Source of the DNA: Flavobacterium arcticum
GTDB lineage: Bacteria; Bacteroidota; Bacteroidia; Flavobacteriales; Flavobacteriaceae
Length of the DNA stretch: 64,000 bases
Reading direction: 5' to 3'
NCBI RefSeq assembly: GCF_003344925.1
Contig: NZ_CP031188.1
Location: forward strand, 1,486,501 to 1,550,500
The position numbers and the translations under genes are program-made. This document shows, piece after piece, positions 19,129-63,066 of this stretch (positions within the stretch are counted from its first letter, which is position 1; the number at the start of each line of letters is the position of its first letter). The notes below the pieces were generated by a model. The model was not told the origin of the DNA and searched no databases. It worked only from the letters and a program-made list of their open reading frames with translations.

Positions 19129-19280
19129 AAAAAGAAGTAACGAAAGAAACAATAAAAGAGGAACAAAAAGAAGTAACGAAAGAAACAATAAAAGAGAAAA
19201 CAAAAAGAAGTAACGAAAGAAACAATAAAAGAGGAACAAAAAGAAGTAACGAAAGAAATAATAAAAGAGAAAACAAAAAG
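19129..19280. repeat. minisatellite, four 36/37-bp units
   Basis: Units at 19129-19164, 19165-19201, 19202-19237 and 19238-19274, alternating 36 and 37 bp (a 73-bp double unit twice), plus a 6-bp partial. The unit begins AAAAAGAAGTAACGAAAGAA. Copies are nearly identical, suggesting recent slippage. No start codon opens a convincing frame in the repeat on the plus strand. Confidence 0.85.
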
Positions 19281-19309
19281 ATTGCCACGTCGTACCTCCT
19301 CGCAATGAC
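19280..19309 (+). repeat. REP-like dispersed repeat, copy 5
   Basis: Almost identical to the copy at 194-223 (one change in the centre) and directly abuts the minisatellite. Confidence 0.6.
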
Positions 19310-54382: not shown

Positions 54383-56281
54383 ATGAGCGACGCTATTAAA
54401 CACGAATGCGGTATTGCGCTTTTAAGGCTAAAAAAGCCTTTAGATTTTTATAAACAAAAATACGGTTCTGCTTTTTATGGCATACAAAAAATGTATTTGC
54501 TAATGGAAAAGCAGCACAACCGTGGGCAAGATGGTGCCGGTTTTGCTAGTATTAAAATGGATGTTAAACCTGGGCAACGCTACATAAGCCGTGTGCGCTC
54601 TAACCAGCAACAACCTATACAAGACATTTTTAAACAAATAAACGAAAGGATAAGCGAAGAGCTTACTGCACACCCAGAGTATAATGAGGATACTGCCTTA
54701 ATGAAAAGCCAAGTGCCTTATGTGGGCGAGGTTTATTTAGGGCACGTGCGTTATGGTACTTTTGGTAAAAACAGTATAGAGAGCGTTCACCCGTTTTTGA
54801 GGCAAAACAACTGGATGCACCGTAACCTTATTGTGGCGGGTAACTTTAACATGACTAATGTTAAAGAACTTTTTGAAAGTTTAGTAGAGCTAGGGCAGCA
54901 CCCTAAAGAACTTGCCGATACAGTAACGGTAATGGAGAAAATAGGTCATTTTCTTGATGATGAGGTTGGTGAGTTATACCAAGATTGTAAAAATGAAGGA
55001 TTAAGCAAAGAAGAGGCATCGCCTGTAATATCTGAAAGGCTAGATGTAGCACGCATATTAAGACGTGCTTCTAAGCAATGGGATGGTGGTTATGCTATGG
55101 CAGGACTTTTTGGTCATGGCGATAGTTTTGTATTTCGCGACCCTGCGGGTATTCGTCCAGCATATTATTATGAAGATGATGAGATTGCCGTAGTAGCATC
55201 AGAGCGTCCTGTAATTCAAACTACATTTAATGTACCGTTTGAAGAGGTAAAAGAACTTGAACCAGGTCATGCTATTATCATTAAAAAAGATGGCGAAGTA
55301 TCTATACGAGAAATTATACCCTCTGTAGGTAAAAAAGCATGTTCTTTTGAGCGTATTTACTTTTCTAGAGGTAGTGATGCCGAAATATATAAAGAGCGTA
55401 AAGAGCTAGGTAAATTAGTATTACCACAAGTGCTTAAAGCTATTGATAATGATACTGATAATAGTGTGTTTAGTTATATACCTAATACTGCCGAAACGTC
55501 TTTCTTTGGGATGGTAGAGGCAGCTCAAGATTTCTTGAATGACAGGAAGAACAACCATATACTAGAAAATAGAGAAACCCTTACTGAGGAAACCCTAAAA
55601 GAGTTATTGTCAGTAAAAATACGTACCGAGAAGGTAGCTATTAAAGATGCCAAACTACGTACTTTTATTACAGAAGATAGTAGTCGTGATGATCTTGTAG
55701 CACACGTGTATGACGTTACCTATGGTGTGATAAAGCCAGAGGATAATCTTGTTATTATAGATGATAGTATTGTGCGTGGTACTACATTAAAAATGAGTAT
55801 CATAAAAATGATGGATAGGTTAAACCCGAAACGTATTGTAGTAGTGTCATCTGCTCCGCAAATACGTTATCCTGACTGTTATGGTATAGATATGGCAAAA
55901 CTAGAAGGTTTGGTGGCATTTCAGGCAGCGCTGGCACTTCATAAAGAGCGTGGTACCGAAGATATTGTTGATGAAGTATATAAAAAGTCGAAAGCACAAG
56001 AGAACACGCCCGATATTGATGTGGTAAATTATGTAAGAGAGTTTTATGCTCCTTTTACAGATGAAGAAATTTCAGACAAAATAGCAGAGCTGCTAAAGAC
56101 AGAAGATGTAAAAGCAGATGTAAAAGTAATATTTCAAAGCGTTGATAACTTGCACAAAGCTTGTCCTGATAACTTAGGGGACTGGTATTTTACAGGCGAT
56201 TACCCTACACCAGGTGGTAATAGAGTTGTAAATCGTGCATTTATCAATTTTTATGAAGGTAATGATGCCCGCGCATACTAA
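54383..56281 (+). CDS. divergent PurF-like amidophosphoribosyltransferase
   Basis: 632 residues, about 120 longer than usual PurF. The nucleophile Cys9 (KHECGIALL) would be exposed after removal of an 8-residue propeptide. The glutaminase half has RGQDGAG (47-53) and GHVRYGT. Where PurF has NGN the protein reads AGNFNMTN (N154, F155), so the oxyanion Gly is replaced by Phe. The PRPP loop VIIDDSIVRGTT is intact. The first committed step of purine synthesis is expected, but altered glutamine use is possible. The first small RNA gene begins 79 bp after it. Confidence 0.85.
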   Translation: MSDAIKHECGIALLRLKKPLDFYKQKYGSAFYGIQKMYLLMEKQHNRGQDGAGFASIKMDVKPGQRYISRVRSNQQQPIQDIFKQINERISEELTAHPEYNEDTALMKSQVPYVGEVYLGHVRYGTFGKNSIESVHPFLRQNNWMHRNLIVAGNFNMTNVKELFESLVELGQHPKELADTVTVMEKIGHFLDDEVGELYQDCKNEGLSKEEASPVISERLDVARILRRASKQWDGGYAMAGLFGHGDSFVFRDPAGIRPAYYYEDDEIAVVASERPVIQTTFNVPFEEVKELEPGHAIIIKKDGEVSIREIIPSVGKKACSFERIYFSRGSDAEIYKERKELGKLVLPQVLKAIDNDTDNSVFSYIPNTAETSFFGMVEAAQDFLNDRKNNHILENRETLTEETLKELLSVKIRTEKVAIKDAKLRTFITEDSSRDDLVAHVYDVTYGVIKPEDNLVIIDDSIVRGTTLKMSIIKMMDRLNPKRIVVVSSAPQIRYPDCYGIDMAKLEGLVAFQAALALHKERGTEDIVDEVYKKSKAQENTPDIDVVNYVREFYAPFTDEEISDKIAELLKTEDVKADVKVIFQSVDNLHKACPDNLGDWYFTGDYPTPGGNRVVNRAFINFYEGNDARAY

Positions 56282-56359
56282 ATAATGCATTTCATCGGTT
56301 TTTAATGCATTTCATCTATAATGTTTATTGTATGTTAAAAATGTTTATATATTTAATAC

Positions 56360-56434
56360 AAATAGCATTAGTAATTTAATTTTATGGTATTTGGGGGCGA
56401 GAAAGCGAAAACTATACAGTTTTCGCTTTCTTTT
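56360..56434 (+). ncRNA. small RNA family, copy A (divergent)
   Basis: About 75 nt. -7-like box TATATTTA at 56348-56355; the RNA begins near AAATAGCA (56360). It has the family order: AT-rich 5' part, unpaired GGTATTTGGGGGC (five G at 56393-56397), then a perfect 13-bp terminator stem with ATAC loop (56401-56430) and T-run. It could also terminate the purF-like message. Confidence 0.75.
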
Positions 56435-56548
56435 GTTTAAGCGTTTTATTATTAGCTATTTAATATCATTACCATCTGTATAATGATATTTTTGTAACAA
56501 TTTAATAACTTTCTTTAACTTTTTTTTATGATTTTTATTACTATAGGT

Positions 56549-56579
56549 TTGTAGTGTAGTGGTACATAGTTTATCTTTG
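56549..56579 (+). promoter_or_regulatory. promoter of small RNA copy B
   Basis: TTG (56549-56551), 20-bp spacer, TATCTTTG (56572-56579): exact consensus, with the RNA start 6 bp later. Confidence 0.7.
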
Positions 56580-56584
56580 TAATC

Positions 56585-56662
56585 AAATAGCAAGTAAAAA
56601 TTAATTTTTACGATATTTTTGGGGATAGAAAGCAGAAACCTTGGTTTCTGCTTTCTTGTTTT
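56585..56662 (+). ncRNA. small RNA family, copy B (divergent)
   Basis: About 78 nt. Starts AAATAGCA; a longer 5' hairpin (GTAAAAATT/AATTTTTAC, perfect) replaces the 5-bp one of other copies, keeping the pairing. ATTTTTGGGG (four G, 56621-56624) follows, then a 13-bp terminator stem (56628-56655). Directly upstream of the CDF gene but with its own terminator. Confidence 0.8.
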
Positions 56663-56737: not shown

Positions 56738-57613
56738 ATGAATAAAAATCACCAAACAGCCGTTAGAGCCACTTATTTTAGTATAGCCACTAATGCTGCA
56801 TTGGCAGTTATAAAAGCAATAGTAGGTGTTTTTGGTAATTCGTATGCATTAATAGCCGATGCTATAGAATCGGCTACCGATATTTTTTCTTCACTTTTGG
56901 TATTATTTGGTTTAAAATATGCTAGTAGACCTGCCGATGAAAATCATCCGTATGGGCATGGGCGTGCAGAACCACTTATAACATTTATTGTAGTTGGGTT
57001 TTTAATAGCATCGGCTATGCTTATTGCTCATGAGAGTATTGAAAACATAGGCATTCCGCATGCACCACCTAAACCATGGACACTTTTTTTTCTTGGAGCA
57101 CTTATTATCTGGAAAGAGCTATCGTTTAGAATAGTAATGCAAAAAGCAATACAGTCTAACAGTTCGTCGCTAAAAGCAGATGCATGGCACCATCGTAGCG
57201 ATGCTATAACATCGGTAGCGGCATTTATAGGTATTACTATAGCTGTAATATTTGGAGAGGGGTATGAAGCTGCCGATGACTGGGCAGCACTGTTTGCTTC
57301 GGGTTTTATACTATATAATGCCTATAAAATATTTAGACCAGCACTGGGCGAAATAATGGATGAACATTTATATGACGATGTTATAGCTAATATAAGAGAA
57401 GTAGCTGTAAAAGTAGAGGGTATAGTAACTACAGAGAAGTGCTATGTGCGCAAAGCAGGTATGCAATATCATATAGATCTTCATGCTGTTGTAGATGGTA
57501 CTATTACAGTAAAGCACGGGCATGAGCTGGCGCATAACCTTCAGGATAGGCTAAGGCTCGAATTTCCTGAATTTGGTAATATTCTTATTCATATAGAGCC
57601 AGATAGCTATTGA
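56738..57613 (+). CDS. cation diffusion facilitator family transporter
   Basis: 291 residues. Six transmembrane helices and a C-terminal cytoplasmic domain. Metal-site residues are IADAIESATDIFSS and DAWHHRSDAITS, with the HPYGHGRAEPL loop. Exports a divalent metal (Zn2+, Fe2+, Mn2+ or Co2+) with protons. Small RNA genes lie immediately before and after it, but each has its own signals. Confidence 0.93.
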   Translation: MNKNHQTAVRATYFSIATNAALAVIKAIVGVFGNSYALIADAIESATDIFSSLLVLFGLKYASRPADENHPYGHGRAEPLITFIVVGFLIASAMLIAHESIENIGIPHAPPKPWTLFFLGALIIWKELSFRIVMQKAIQSNSSSLKADAWHHRSDAITSVAAFIGITIAVIFGEGYEAADDWAALFASGFILYNAYKIFRPALGEIMDEHLYDDVIANIREVAVKVEGIVTTEKCYVRKAGMQYHIDLHAVVDGTITVKHGHELAHNLQDRLRLEFPEFGNILIHIEPDSY

Positions 57614-57677
57614 TGTTTGAGTACAAAAATGGTAAATAGTGTATTTAATCGATTTTTCATTCTGTTTGTCTAAATGG

Positions 57678-57710
57678 TTTGTATTGAGCAGTACTGTTGT
57701 TGTATGTTTG
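57678..57710 (+). promoter_or_regulatory. promoter of small RNA copy C
   Basis: TTTG (57678-57681), 21-bp spacer, TATGTTTG (57703-57710). The same promoter recurs at 57905-57937, 58136-58168 and 58366-58398. Confidence 0.8.
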
Positions 57711-57716
57711 TCAATG

Positions 57717-57792
57717 AAATAGCAATAGTAAATTAATTATTACGGTATTTTGGGGGCAAAAAGCGACAACTATATAGTTATCGCTTTTTTTT
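57717..57792 (+). ncRNA. small RNA family, copy C
   Basis: About 76 nt. AAATAGCAATAG start, G-run 57752-57756, terminator stem GCGACAAC...GTTATCGC with one C/A mismatch compared with the perfect stem in copies D-F, then eight T. Confidence 0.85.
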
Positions 57793-57904
57793 GTGCTTAA
57801 TTTTTTGAGCTATATAATCAATATCCTTTATAGTTACTGATTAGCAGGTATTTAGTGTGAAAAAGTGCATTTAAACGATTTTTTTATTCTGTTTATCTAT
57901 ACGG

Positions 57905-57937
57905 TTTGTAACGAGGAGTACTGTTGTTGTATGTTTG
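57905..57937 (+). promoter_or_regulatory. promoter of small RNA copy D
   Basis: TTTG (57905-57908), 21-bp spacer, TATGTTTG (57930-57937). Confidence 0.8.
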
Positions 57938-57943
57938 TCAGTG

Positions 57944-58019
57944 AAATAGCAATAGTAAATTAATTATTACGGTATTTTGGGGGCAAAAAGCGAAAACTAT
58001 ATAGTTTTCGCTTTTTTTT
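57944..58019 (+). ncRNA. small RNA family, copy D
   Basis: About 76 nt; same order as copy C, G-run 57979-57983, perfect GCGAAAACTA/TAGTTTTCGC terminator and eight T. Confidence 0.88.
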
Positions 58020-58135
58020 ATGTCTAATTTTTTTGGGTAATATGTAGTTTATGATCTTTATAGTTACTGATTAACAGGTGTTTTGGGTGTAAAAAGTGTA
58101 TTTAAACGATTTTTTCATTCTGTTTGTCTAAACGG

Positions 58136-58168
58136 TTTGTATTGAGGGGGACTGTTGTTGTATGTTTG
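58136..58168 (+). promoter_or_regulatory. promoter of small RNA copy E
   Basis: TTTG (58136-58139), 21-bp spacer, TATGTTTG (58161-58168). Confidence 0.8.
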
Positions 58169-58174
58169 TCAGTG

Positions 58175-58249
58175 AAATAGCAATAGTAAATTAATTTTAC
58201 GGTATTTTGGGGGCAAAAAGCGAAAACTATATAGTTTTCGCTTTTTTTT
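58175..58249 (+). ncRNA. small RNA family, copy E
   Basis: About 75 nt; GTAAA/TTTAC 5' hairpin, G-run 58209-58213, perfect terminator stem and eight T. Confidence 0.88.
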
Positions 58250-58365
58250 GTGCTTAATTTTTAGGGACTACATATATCAAATGCCTTTTATAACTACCCA
58301 TTAATAGGTATTTTGAGTAAAAAGTGTGTATTTAAACGATTTTTTTATTGCGTTCGTCTATACGG

Positions 58366-58398
58366 TTTGTACTGAGGTGTGTTGTTGTTGTATGTTTG
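58366..58398 (+). promoter_or_regulatory. promoter of small RNA copy F
   Basis: TTTG (58366-58369), 21-bp spacer, TATGTTTG (58391-58398). Confidence 0.8.
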
Positions 58399-58404
58399 TC
58401 AGTG

Positions 58405-58479
58405 AAATAGCAATAGTAAATTGATTTTACGGTATTTTGGGGGCAAAAAGCGAAAACTATATAGTTTTCGCTTTTTTTT
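58405..58479 (+). ncRNA. small RNA family, copy F
   Basis: About 75 nt; differs from copy E in the transcript by one A to G in the 5' hairpin loop (TTGAT for TTAAT), leaving the stem intact. G-run 58439-58443. Confidence 0.88.
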
Positions 58480-58629
58480 ATGCACTATAGTTAAGTCTAA
58501 ATTCTTTGCACTCTTTGCTTAAAGAGCAAGTATTTTGTTACAGCTTAACGTTTTGCTTCTTTTTTTAACAAAAAAAAGAATATTTTTATTTGAATATTAA
58601 ATTTTGTGATTAATATTTTAAATAATTAA

Positions 58630-58660: not shown

Positions 58661-58665
58661 TACTG

Positions 58666-58741
58666 AATAATATAGTAAATTAATTTTTACGGTATTTTTT
58701 GGGGGCGGAAGCGGAAACTCAGTTTTCCGCTTCTTTTTTTT
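58666..58741 (+). ncRNA. small RNA family, copy G (divergent)
   Basis: About 76 nt. Keeps GTAAA-TTAATT-TTTAC, ACGGTATTTTTTGGGGGC and a terminator, but the stem has changed to GAAGCGGAAA/TTTTCCGCTTC-type sequence on both arms, so pairing is conserved while the sequence is not. Confidence 0.8.
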
Positions 58742-58807: not shown

Positions 58808-59416
58808 TTATTTTTCCATTGCATAGCGTCTTGCTACTTCTTCCCAGTTAATAACATTAAAGAAAGCCTCTATATAATCAGGACGTTTGTTTTGGTAGTT
58901 TAGGTAATAAGCATGTTCCCATACATCAAGACCTAATATAGGTGTACCACCGCAGCCAACTTCTGGCATTAATGGGTTGTCTTGGTTAGGAGTAGCACAT
59001 ACATCTACCTTACCACCTTTATGTACACAAAGCCAAGCCCATCCAGACCCAAACTGTGTAGCAGCAGCTTTGGCAAATGTTGCTTTAAACTCCTCAAATG
59101 TACCGAAAGCTTTTTCAATAGCTTCTTCTAGGTCACCTGTTGGTCGTCCGCCACCGTTTGGCGACATTACTTGCCAAAAAAGGCTGTGGTTATAAAAACC
59201 ACCACCGTTATTTCTTACGGCTTTGTTAGCCATATCTAAGTTTATAAGGATATTTTCTATAGTTTTACCTTCAAGGTCAGTACCTTCTATAGCATTATTT
59301 AGGTTAGTAGTATAACCATTATGGTGTTTTGTATGGTGTATTTCCATAGTGCGTGCATCAATATGAGGCTCAAGAGCATCATATGCATAAGGAAGTTTTG
59401 GTAATTCAAATGCCAT
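58808..59416 (-). CDS. superoxide dismutase, Fe/Mn type
   Basis: 202 residues. Dismutates superoxide in the cytoplasm. Metal ligands by family alignment: His in [12 protein letters not shown], His in [13 protein letters not shown], and Asp/His in [12 protein letters not shown]. No signal peptide. The metal (Fe or Mn) cannot be told with confidence. A -7 box (TAAATTTG, 59456-59463 on the minus strand) precedes it by about 39 bp. Confidence 0.95.
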
Positions 59417-62736: not shown

Positions 62737-63066
62737 ATGGATTTTAGGGAATTAATAGGGTATAAGAAAGCATTTGAAATATCGATGGAGGTTTTTCATA
62801 TCTCTAAATCATTCCCTGTTGAAGAAAAATATTCTCTTACCGATCAAATAAGGCGTTCATCACGTAGTGTATGCGCTAACTTTGCCGAGGCATATAGAAA
62901 AAGACGTTATGTGAACCATTTTATAAGCAAGTTGACAGATTGTGATGCCGAAAACTCTGAAACAAATGTTTGGCTTGAATTTGCTCTCAAGTGTAATTAT
63001 ATAAATAATGAAACTTATATAGATTTAACTACAAAGAATGCAGAAGTAGGAAAAATTATAAGATAA
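62737..63066 (+). CDS. S23-type four-helix-bundle protein, C-terminus frameshifted
   Basis: 109 residues. The start MDFRELIGYKKAFEISMEVF and DQIRRSSRSVCANFAEAYRK are the hallmarks of the 23S rRNA intervening-sequence (four-helix bundle) family. The frame stops at KIIR, about ten residues early. In another frame the sequence right after encodes NNPEKFGCKI (63066-63098), which is the normal family ending (NNPEKFG), so a small deletion, probably 7 bp, has shifted the end. The protein may still fold. Confidence 0.82.
   Translation: MDFRELIGYKKAFEISMEVFHISKSFPVEEKYSLTDQIRRSSRSVCANFAEAYRKRRYVNHFISKLTDCDAENSETNVWLEFALKCNYINNETYIDLTTKNAEVGKIIR

Follow-up and report, generated by a model that had tools for sequence, protein, structure and literature searches.

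A family-wide small RNA between purF and sodA in Flavobacteriaceae: tandem copies, upstream operators and predicted start-codon targets

The sRNA cluster in the window and its RNA

In the window, by which we mean the whole 64,000-nucleotide stretch of the Flavobacterium arcticum genome that was analysed, seven copies of a small RNA (sRNA) gene, referred to as A, B, U1 to U4 and G, all lie between purF and sodA. The main units U1 to U4 each consist of a Bacteroidota promoter, an RNA of about 76 nt with two hairpins and a terminator. The initial annotation had described these four units as a tandem array, and Tandem Repeats Finder recovers this array at 57632-58483, with a period of 230, 3.7 copies and 86% matches. 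By regular expression, every one of the four units contains an exact TTTG-N21-TATGTTTG promoter (at 57678, 57905, 58136 and 58366). Transcripts are predicted to start near 57717, 57944, 58175 and 58405, where the initial annotation had placed them, its T-runs are confirmed as well, and the ORF list contains no frame of at least 60 aa inside the units. The copy number of four had to be raised to seven, as three diverged copies nearby had been overlooked. The features are the following:

54383..56281, + strand: purF (amidophosphoribosyltransferase, named from sequence), ORF; conserved upstream neighbour
56291..56318, + strand: operator of copy A, GCATTTCATC-N10-GCATTTCATC; score 15/16, spacing 20
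56359..56434, + strand: sRNA copy A (diverged) with terminator; R1 match 56359-56433, 93.5 bits; fold z -5.9
56548..56579, + strand: promoter of copy B, TTTG-N20-TATCTTTG, by regular expression
56584..56658, + strand: sRNA copy B (diverged) with terminator; R1 84.1 bits; without operator of score >=15
56738..57613, + strand: gene of 291 aa, ORF, which we take from its sequence to encode a cation-efflux-type transporter; interrupts the cluster
57645..57672, + strand: operator of U1; score 16/16
57678..57710, + strand: promoter of U1, TTTG-N21-TATGTTTG, by regular expression
57716..57792, + strand: sRNA U1 with terminator; R1 101.8 bits
57871..57899, + strand: operator of U2; score 16/16
57905..57937, + strand: promoter of U2, by regular expression
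57943..58018, + strand: sRNA U2 with terminator; R1 105.1 bits
58102..58130, + strand: operator of U3; score 16/16
58136..58168, + strand: promoter of U3, by regular expression
58174..58248, + strand: sRNA U3 with terminator; R1 102.6 bits
58332..58360, + strand: operator of U4; score 16/16
58366..58398, + strand: promoter of U4, by regular expression
58404..58478, + strand: sRNA U4 with terminator; R1 100.5 bits
58664..58741, + strand: sRNA copy G (diverged) with terminator; R1 match 58664-58737, 75 bits; without operator of score >=15
58808..59416, - strand: sodA (superoxide dismutase, named from sequence), ORF; conserved convergent neighbour

As in families of the LhrC type, several near-identical copies are adjacent, here four of them together with three diverged ones, and consensus and folding predict a promoter of their own and a rho-independent terminator. 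Because model R1 was built from all seven window copies, the scores of its members, including those of A (93.5 bits), B (84.1) and G (75), match by construction, and the real support for these three copies is their common core, promoters and terminators. A small coding gene was rejected: the main-type frame ATGGTA..ATTTGGGG ends at many lengths or beyond the stretch read, and it is missing from 18 of 306 copies. At the start-codon position of the window copies, U1 to U4 and G read ACGG and B reads ACGA, ATGG being kept in A only.

Two further features of the window lie apart from the cluster. A 36-bp tandem repeat with 4.2 copies was found by Tandem Repeats Finder at 19129-19281. At 62737-63066 there is a 109-aa ORF that may be akin to the four-helix-bundle (23S rRNA intervening-sequence) proteins, and a similar ORF occurs in the locus of a relative (L066).

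The predicted fold of the sRNA consists of a first hairpin, then a single-stranded UUUUGGGGGC linker and then the terminator hairpin, with fold z-scores of -2.9 to -4.7 for U1 to U4 and of -4.0 to -5.9 for A, B and G. Two sequence types could be distinguished: the main type, with the core ACCATAACATTAGTAGGTTAAGTTTATGGTAGATTTGGGGCAAA, and the window type, found in the window and a few relatives, with the core AAATAGCATTAGTAAATTAATTTTTACGGTATTTTTGGGGGCAAA; single-copy folds show that both keep the two-hairpin design. Main-type copies carry long, nearly invariant stretches, e.g. TTATGGTAGATTTGGGGCAAA, and the window-type core has 22 invariant and 15 nearly invariant columns among 17 copies. The motif TAnnTT[TC][GA] is present in 282 of 305 copies, compared to 15% in shuffles. 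The terminator stems vary freely in sequence and covary strongly, with 7 of 10 pairs changed on both sides, and the covariation count of the whole structure was reached by none of 500 shuffles, in an alignment that had been fitted to model R2. The first hairpin is nearly devoid of covariation (0 of 7 pairs changed on both sides in alignment A6, one pair being unpaired in 26 of its 40 rows) and is absent from the RNAalifold prediction on the main-type alignment A4. This hairpin is too conserved for a covariation test.

Distribution and chromosomal address

The initial annotation had left open whether the units correspond to the Rfam motif Flavo-1 or are new. Identity with Flavo-1 is contradicted by the searches, as no Flavo-1 was detected up to E 10 around the array and no Rfam match in the window reached the gathering level. 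In a relative, a true Flavo-1 stands apart from the sRNA (L109:6785-6864), at about 0.9 kb from the last sRNA copy and on the opposite strand. More generally, no Rfam 15 family reached its gathering score in any of the sequences searched, namely the window, the arrays of nine genus loci and 20 family loci. Other Rfam families were rejected, the best sub-threshold match on the array being STnc40 with 31.5 of 45 bits, and the GibS model, in a main-type locus, stayed at 21.2 of 115 bits and matched the opposite strand. The literature searches brought up no recognisable description of the array or of a CAP-targeting flavobacterial sRNA. Thus, the family is new as far as Rfam 15 and this literature reach; it may have been detected earlier as an unnamed transcript in data from F. 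psychrophilum or F. columnare.

A search of other flavobacterial genomes, which had been proposed as a check, revealed a family-wide distribution. R1 matched 135 of 150 genomes of the same genus at E<=0.01, and R2, the model built from the main type, matched 246 of 299 family genomes and 198 of 236 genera at E<=0.001. Outside the family, only three weak matches were obtained from a sample of 246 genomes drawn across the order, some of them from the family itself; these matches were judged to be chance because parts of the core are broken or missing. The exact 21-mer TTATGGTAGATTTGGGGCAAA occurs in at least 120 stretches of named genomes; the 80 stretches listed come mostly from Flavobacterium, and also from Winogradskyella, Algibacter, Xanthomarina, Lacinutrix, Psychroserpens, Tamlana, Mangrovimonas and others. 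F. pectinovorum (L208) carries two copies with this exact core. Two or more copies were found in 41 of 60 fetched genus loci, with at most four, a lower bound given the strict pattern. It is important to add that copies and genomes are related by descent and that the genus and named collections overlap, so the counts and Fisher values reported here are not independent trials.

The address of the sRNA is largely fixed. Across 61 genus-level loci (60 fetched ones and the window), purF was found in 59, pfkB in 59 and sodA in 52, arranged as pfkB-purF-sRNA(s)-sodA; wherever purF is present, the sRNAs share its strand. In the genus loci other than the window, no gene on the sRNA strand lies between copies. 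At the family level, 109 loci in which the pattern found a copy, many of them ending close to it, comprised 81 with purF and sodA, 17 with purF only, 4 with sodA only and 7 with neither. Copies with neither purF nor sodA nearby include single ones in L304, L202, L198 and L240 and a pair in L254. In genomes without a match, 19 purF loci contained no credible copy, the best score being 16.8 bits for the terminator part only; one of these loci (L342) ends 61 nt behind purF, and purF itself was unmatched in 2 of the 21 genomes checked for hidden copies. These purF loci without a copy indicate that real losses of the sRNA occur. The neighbouring genes were rejected as targets, with mean z values of -0.24 for sodA, +0.33 for purF and -0.99 for pfkB; the pfkB duplexes were set aside because they are long, gapped and AU-rich.

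This distribution bears on an objection that had been raised in advance, namely that the units are a scattered mobile or terminator-only repeat. Such a repeat does not agree with the syntenic locus, one main-type unit had no phage or plasmid match, and the RNA core is conserved across many genera. Conservation, structure, promoters, terminators and synteny all speak in favour of the proposal that the units are separately transcribed sibling sRNAs, as far as genome comparison can tell.

Operators and predicted targets

Upstream of the -33 element of the sRNA genes lies an operator of two half-sites, TTYATCGA and TTCATCTA, forming a 20-21-bp direct repeat. Of 212 operator matches of score >=12, 200 are spaced exactly 20 bp, and a score >=13 is reached in 155 of 305 copies compared to 4 of 1525 shuffles. 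In the window, the operator precedes five of the seven copies (A and U1 to U4), and none of score >=15 is present at B and G. Across the 64 kb, sites of score >=15 occur only at A and U1 to U4 (six matches, one of them overlapping U4's own); the reversed control of the window had three sites at score 15 and none at 16.

The repeats of the window operators measure about 10 nt, with a spacer of 10-11. According to the available text of one source, LytTR operators consist of two repeats of 9-11 nt that are 11-13 nt apart, and the site of YpdB is GGCATTTCAT-N11-GGCATTTCAT (PMC4847170). The operator of copy A, GCATTTCATC-N10-GCATTTCATC, has nearly the same half-site and spacing as this YpdB site, although the spacer of 10-11 found here differs from the range of 11-13 stated there (PMC4847170). 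The closeness of the half-site makes a LytTR-type regulator of the sRNA promoters likely, as yet as a candidate only. Seven LytTR matches were found in the own genome.

In some loci, the copy nearest sodA carries another upstream box, CTCATTTGCCTATCATTCCAATATATTT, replacing the common operator (L072, L073, L075, L076, L077 and others). In 13 of the 14 copies with this box the copy is the last of two or three, and in one it is a single copy, which suggests differential control of the siblings. Separately, both half-sites occur in the own genome with a spacing of 22, at ~110 nt ahead of an ORF of 646 aa (G000:C1 ~2532696; L318/L463) that by eye looks like a PAS-type sensor histidine kinase. This site is possibly a further member of the regulon, or the sensor, or chance; sites of this kind outside the array number five genome-wide and five in the reversed control.

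Some of the R2 matches without terminator sit antisense over start codons. A sequence-only model of the first 46 nt of the sRNA, R3, was searched against 34 hand-picked genomes and gave 24 off-locus matches at E<=0.01 below the score range of the sRNA itself. All except one of these (G303) were examined: 19 of the 23 lie antisense over the 5'UTR and start codon of genes for CAP-domain lipoproteins, 2 lie on this UTR where a contig ends, and 2 are without ORF. PF00188 was found in all three CAP proteins tested. The UTR of the predicted target reads TTTGCCCCACA(A)TCTACTTTAAACTTAACCTACTA..ATG. At 14 CAP sites of the genus, the calculated duplexes range from -42 to -53 kcal/mol, and at each site none of 100 shuffles was as good. 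The duplexes at 593 other starts have a mean of -15.5 kcal/mol (sd 4.5), the lowest reaching -29.1 kcal/mol when one ORF call antisense to an sRNA copy (-75.9) is excluded. A map of 21 sites shows pairing in three parts of the sRNA: the beginning of the 5' arm, which lies over the start codon, the loop, and the 3' arm together with the linker. Within these parts, one base of the 3' arm pairs at a single site of the 21 and one base of the linker at 10, and several CAP sites have an insertion near the rarely paired base of the 3' arm.

CAP sites are present in 15 of 27 main-type Flavobacterium genomes, a set that includes four genomes chosen because sites had first been seen there and in which the ORF of one site genome (G082) is cut off by contig ends; in the other 12, no site was detected at E<=0.2. 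CAP is therefore not the sole target. In sRNA-bearing genomes of other genera, 7 of the 10 best CAP genes keep, as judged by eye, a shorter bipartite site before the start, composed of CCAAATCTA and ACCTACTT or close variants; 1 has a partial site and 2 have no evident site. The CAP genes of two sRNA-less genomes and four second CAP copies showed no site by eye.

A pattern for the bipartite site gave 48 matches in 149 family genomes, compared to 23 in the reversed control. Thirty of these loci were inspected: 3 are CAP genes, 12 encode a small protein of about 41 aa, 2 encode short secreted-peptide-like ORFs, and the remaining 13 revealed no recurrent class. The ~41-aa protein represents a second predicted target family, found in 12 of 12 loci of one pattern class. 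Its frame is intact in 11 of the 12 loci and shortened in one (L459), one site lies ahead of the start and one within the gene, and the start codons of four loci were re-read from ORFs. Conserved complementarity to the starts of trans-encoded mRNAs is thus seen in main-type relatives, as predicted from their genomes.

Several other matches were observed. The two secreted-peptide-like ORFs (L437 and L453, ~40 aa, MKN.KR.VLLI..IF.AS) have the bipartite site before the start; peptide-signal genes are typical LytTR targets. Among five weaker R3 matches, two cover the start codons of additional proteins with predicted secretion, one of 545 aa (L412, in G120) and one of 275 aa (L413, in G082), which are possible further targets, and three do not. 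In L409, at ~2300-2410, two complementary sites stand in tandem without an ORF behind them and may represent a decayed target or an RNA decoy. Complements of 11 nt to the linker that are not preceded by T were hardly enriched (13 compared to 7 in the control), with a filter that would have hidden the UTR sites too.

An earlier degenerate operator score had been chosen after the CAP upstream regions had been seen, and the comparison was therefore repeated with a matrix trained on 127 sRNA operators alone. With this matrix, the upstream regions of all 19 CAP genes and of 10 of the 12 small-protein genes lie above the 99th percentile of 517 background regions, and 15 CAP and 10 small-protein regions exceed the background maximum. 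The other two small-protein genes and the two short secreted-peptide ORFs had no operator above background, the latter scoring 13 on the earlier scale, like background. In CAP genes, the operator is nearer to the promoter than in the sRNA genes. Because the operator is common to both, the sRNA and its predicted targets seem to form a single regulon, which a LytTR-like regulator may control.

In the case of the window's own lineage, the picture is different. A protein search at E<=1e-8 detected no CAP lipoprotein in any of 8 window-type genomes, so that the CAP target is not directly applicable to the window, nor in any of 5 Flavobacterium genomes without R1 match; of these five, three have an empty stretch behind purF, one has a stretch that is truncated there, and one gave no purF match. 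The Fisher test for CAP sites in 15 of 27 main-type genomes versus 0 of 13 others gave p 0.0005, and without the four genomes in which sites were first seen (11 of 23 versus 0 of 13) p 0.003; presence was judged by the site in the main-type group and by protein search in the other, and kinship is uncorrected. One genome, G097, has the CAP gene with its site; purF and the sRNA were both searched for there and not detected. As the window-type core differs and CAP is missing, the seed appears to have changed where the CAP target is missing.

The best candidate target in the window lineage is a conserved 64-aa ORF of the own genome (L012), selected as the top BLAST match (E 0.02) among those off the locus and at a start codon. 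Its start-codon region is predicted to pair with U1 to U4 at about -26.8 kcal/mol, with none of 200 shuffles as good, and more weakly with A, B and G; it has seven homologues besides itself among 5.8 billion proteins, and no operator above score 13. Two other matches of the own genome (L013 and L015) were rejected because they lie inside coding sequence. Separately, the own genome has a 3' hairpin with CCCC in its exposed loop, a complement of the sRNA linker (L016, G000:C1:2747081-2747097). This hairpin is flanked by the end of one gene and by a convergently oriented gene for a LytTR response regulator; it could be a sponge, or chance.

Proposed mechanism and relation to known sRNAs

Building on the family, its synteny, the operators and the complementarity that the genomes display, we consider it likely that the units are tandem sibling sRNAs that act in trans by base pairing, have promoters of their own, are linked to an operator and block the translation starts of their targets; expression, repression, the identity of the regulator and the target in the own genome are the parts that we infer. 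Each copy would be transcribed from its own promoter; just upstream, at A and U1 to U4 in the window, lies a direct-repeat operator that resembles those of LytTR-type response regulators. To pair, the RNA of ~76 nt would use its 5' arm, its loop and the linker, and the duplex would span the 5'UTR and the start codon on the target side and most likely block translation initiation. In the main type, the targets would be CAP-domain lipoproteins and the ~41-aa protein, mostly with the same operator, which would yield a feed-forward loop of either sign, the regulator acting on both the sRNA and the target and the sRNA acting on the target in turn. In the window lineage, where the CAP target is gone and the seeds are altered, the RNA would act on other mRNAs. 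More tentatively, and with somewhat less than even confidence, one response regulator may drive, via one shared operator and throughout the family, both the array and the mRNAs silenced by the sRNA; where a lineage has lost the lipoprotein target, the array may have been kept, re-seeded for new mRNAs and amplified, with copy number and seed evolving while the chromosomal address stays fixed.

The sites in the UTR could also activate, the sRNA opening or stabilising its target mRNAs in a coherent activating loop under the shared regulator. An operator common to targets and sRNA would be expected in such a loop as well, and deletion of Rfp18 lowers its target mRNA (PMC9723704, available text). 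However, the pairing covers the start codon itself, which is the usual geometry of repression, and the FopS sRNAs of Bacteroides are described in the available text as repressing by binding beside the start codon (PMC11697453). We thus regard activation as unlikely.

Alternatively, the RNA might mainly sequester a protein, with the CAP complementarity secondary or an evolutionary by-product and additional copies raising the capacity of the sponge. CsrB and 6S RNA act in this way, and the nearly invariant TTATGGTAGATTTGGGGCAAA stretches, the several copies per genome and the 12 of 27 main-type genomes without CAP site at E<=0.2 would fit such a role. Yet sequestration does not predict shared operators, nor near-full antisense exactly over CAP start codons in several genera that is missing in two sRNA-less genomes, and this makes it rather improbable as the main function.

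For the array of the window genome, one may further ask if it has drifted after target loss and is on its way out, given that all 8 window-type genomes miss the CAP gene, that the core differs from the main type and that B and G have no operator. Against such decay stand the 22 invariant and 15 nearly invariant columns of the 17 window-type copies, the growth of this very cluster to seven copies and the five intact operators. Altogether, conserved core, growth and intact operators point to a retained function with new targets, and we give drift little credence. That the units are degenerate terminator or promoter repeats without RNA function, as their freely varying terminator stems and tandem recurrence might insinuate, is hardly credible for a syntenic locus with a core kept across many genera and TAnnTT[TC][GA] in 282 of 305 copies.

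The preferred reading, base-pairing sibling sRNAs, has parallels in other bacteria. Like FopS/GibS of Bacteroides thetaiotaomicron, described as multicopy sRNAs of ~65-70 nt with a terminator and pairing beside start codons (PMC11697453), the present sRNA is multicopy and would pair at start codons. The 14 FopS paralogues comprise 9 intergenic, 4 antisense and 1 3'UTR-derived ones and, in the text available, are distinguished by a single-stranded 5' seed and susC targets (PMC11697453), whereas the present sRNA has one syntenic tandem locus, two hairpins, and CAP and small-protein targets as predicted. LhrC1-5 of Listeria likewise form a homologous sRNA family, and activation of lhrC1-5 needs the response regulator LisR, according to the parts of the sources available (PMC5880928, PMC13350326); phylum and regulator differ, and the present RNA is without Rfam match. 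Flavo-1 (RF01705) is also a short flavobacterial RNA, but it has no match in the window. Rfp18 and the other Rfp sRNAs of Flavobacterium psychrophilum are similarly conserved, structured flavobacterial sRNAs (PMC9723704); in Rfp18 a third stem-loop is described as pairing with metalloprotease mRNAs, unlike the two hairpins here (PMC9723704). The present RNA, compared with the Rfp sRNAs by description, may be identical with one of them (PMC9723704).

In conclusion, the units belong to a new sRNA family of sibling type that occurs across the Flavobacteriaceae and is probably controlled by a response regulator, and comparison among the relatives provides strong evidence for predicted start-codon pairing to targets that share its operator. 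To our knowledge, post-transcriptional control in Flavobacteriaceae is hardly known, and we know of no Hfq-type chaperone network established in this family. Because the sRNA is syntenic and family-wide, has predicted targets at start codons as well as an operator, and varies naturally in copy number and seed, hypotheses on dosage, feed-forward control and seed switching become testable in laboratory strains. It would also add an RNA family that is missing from Rfam 15.
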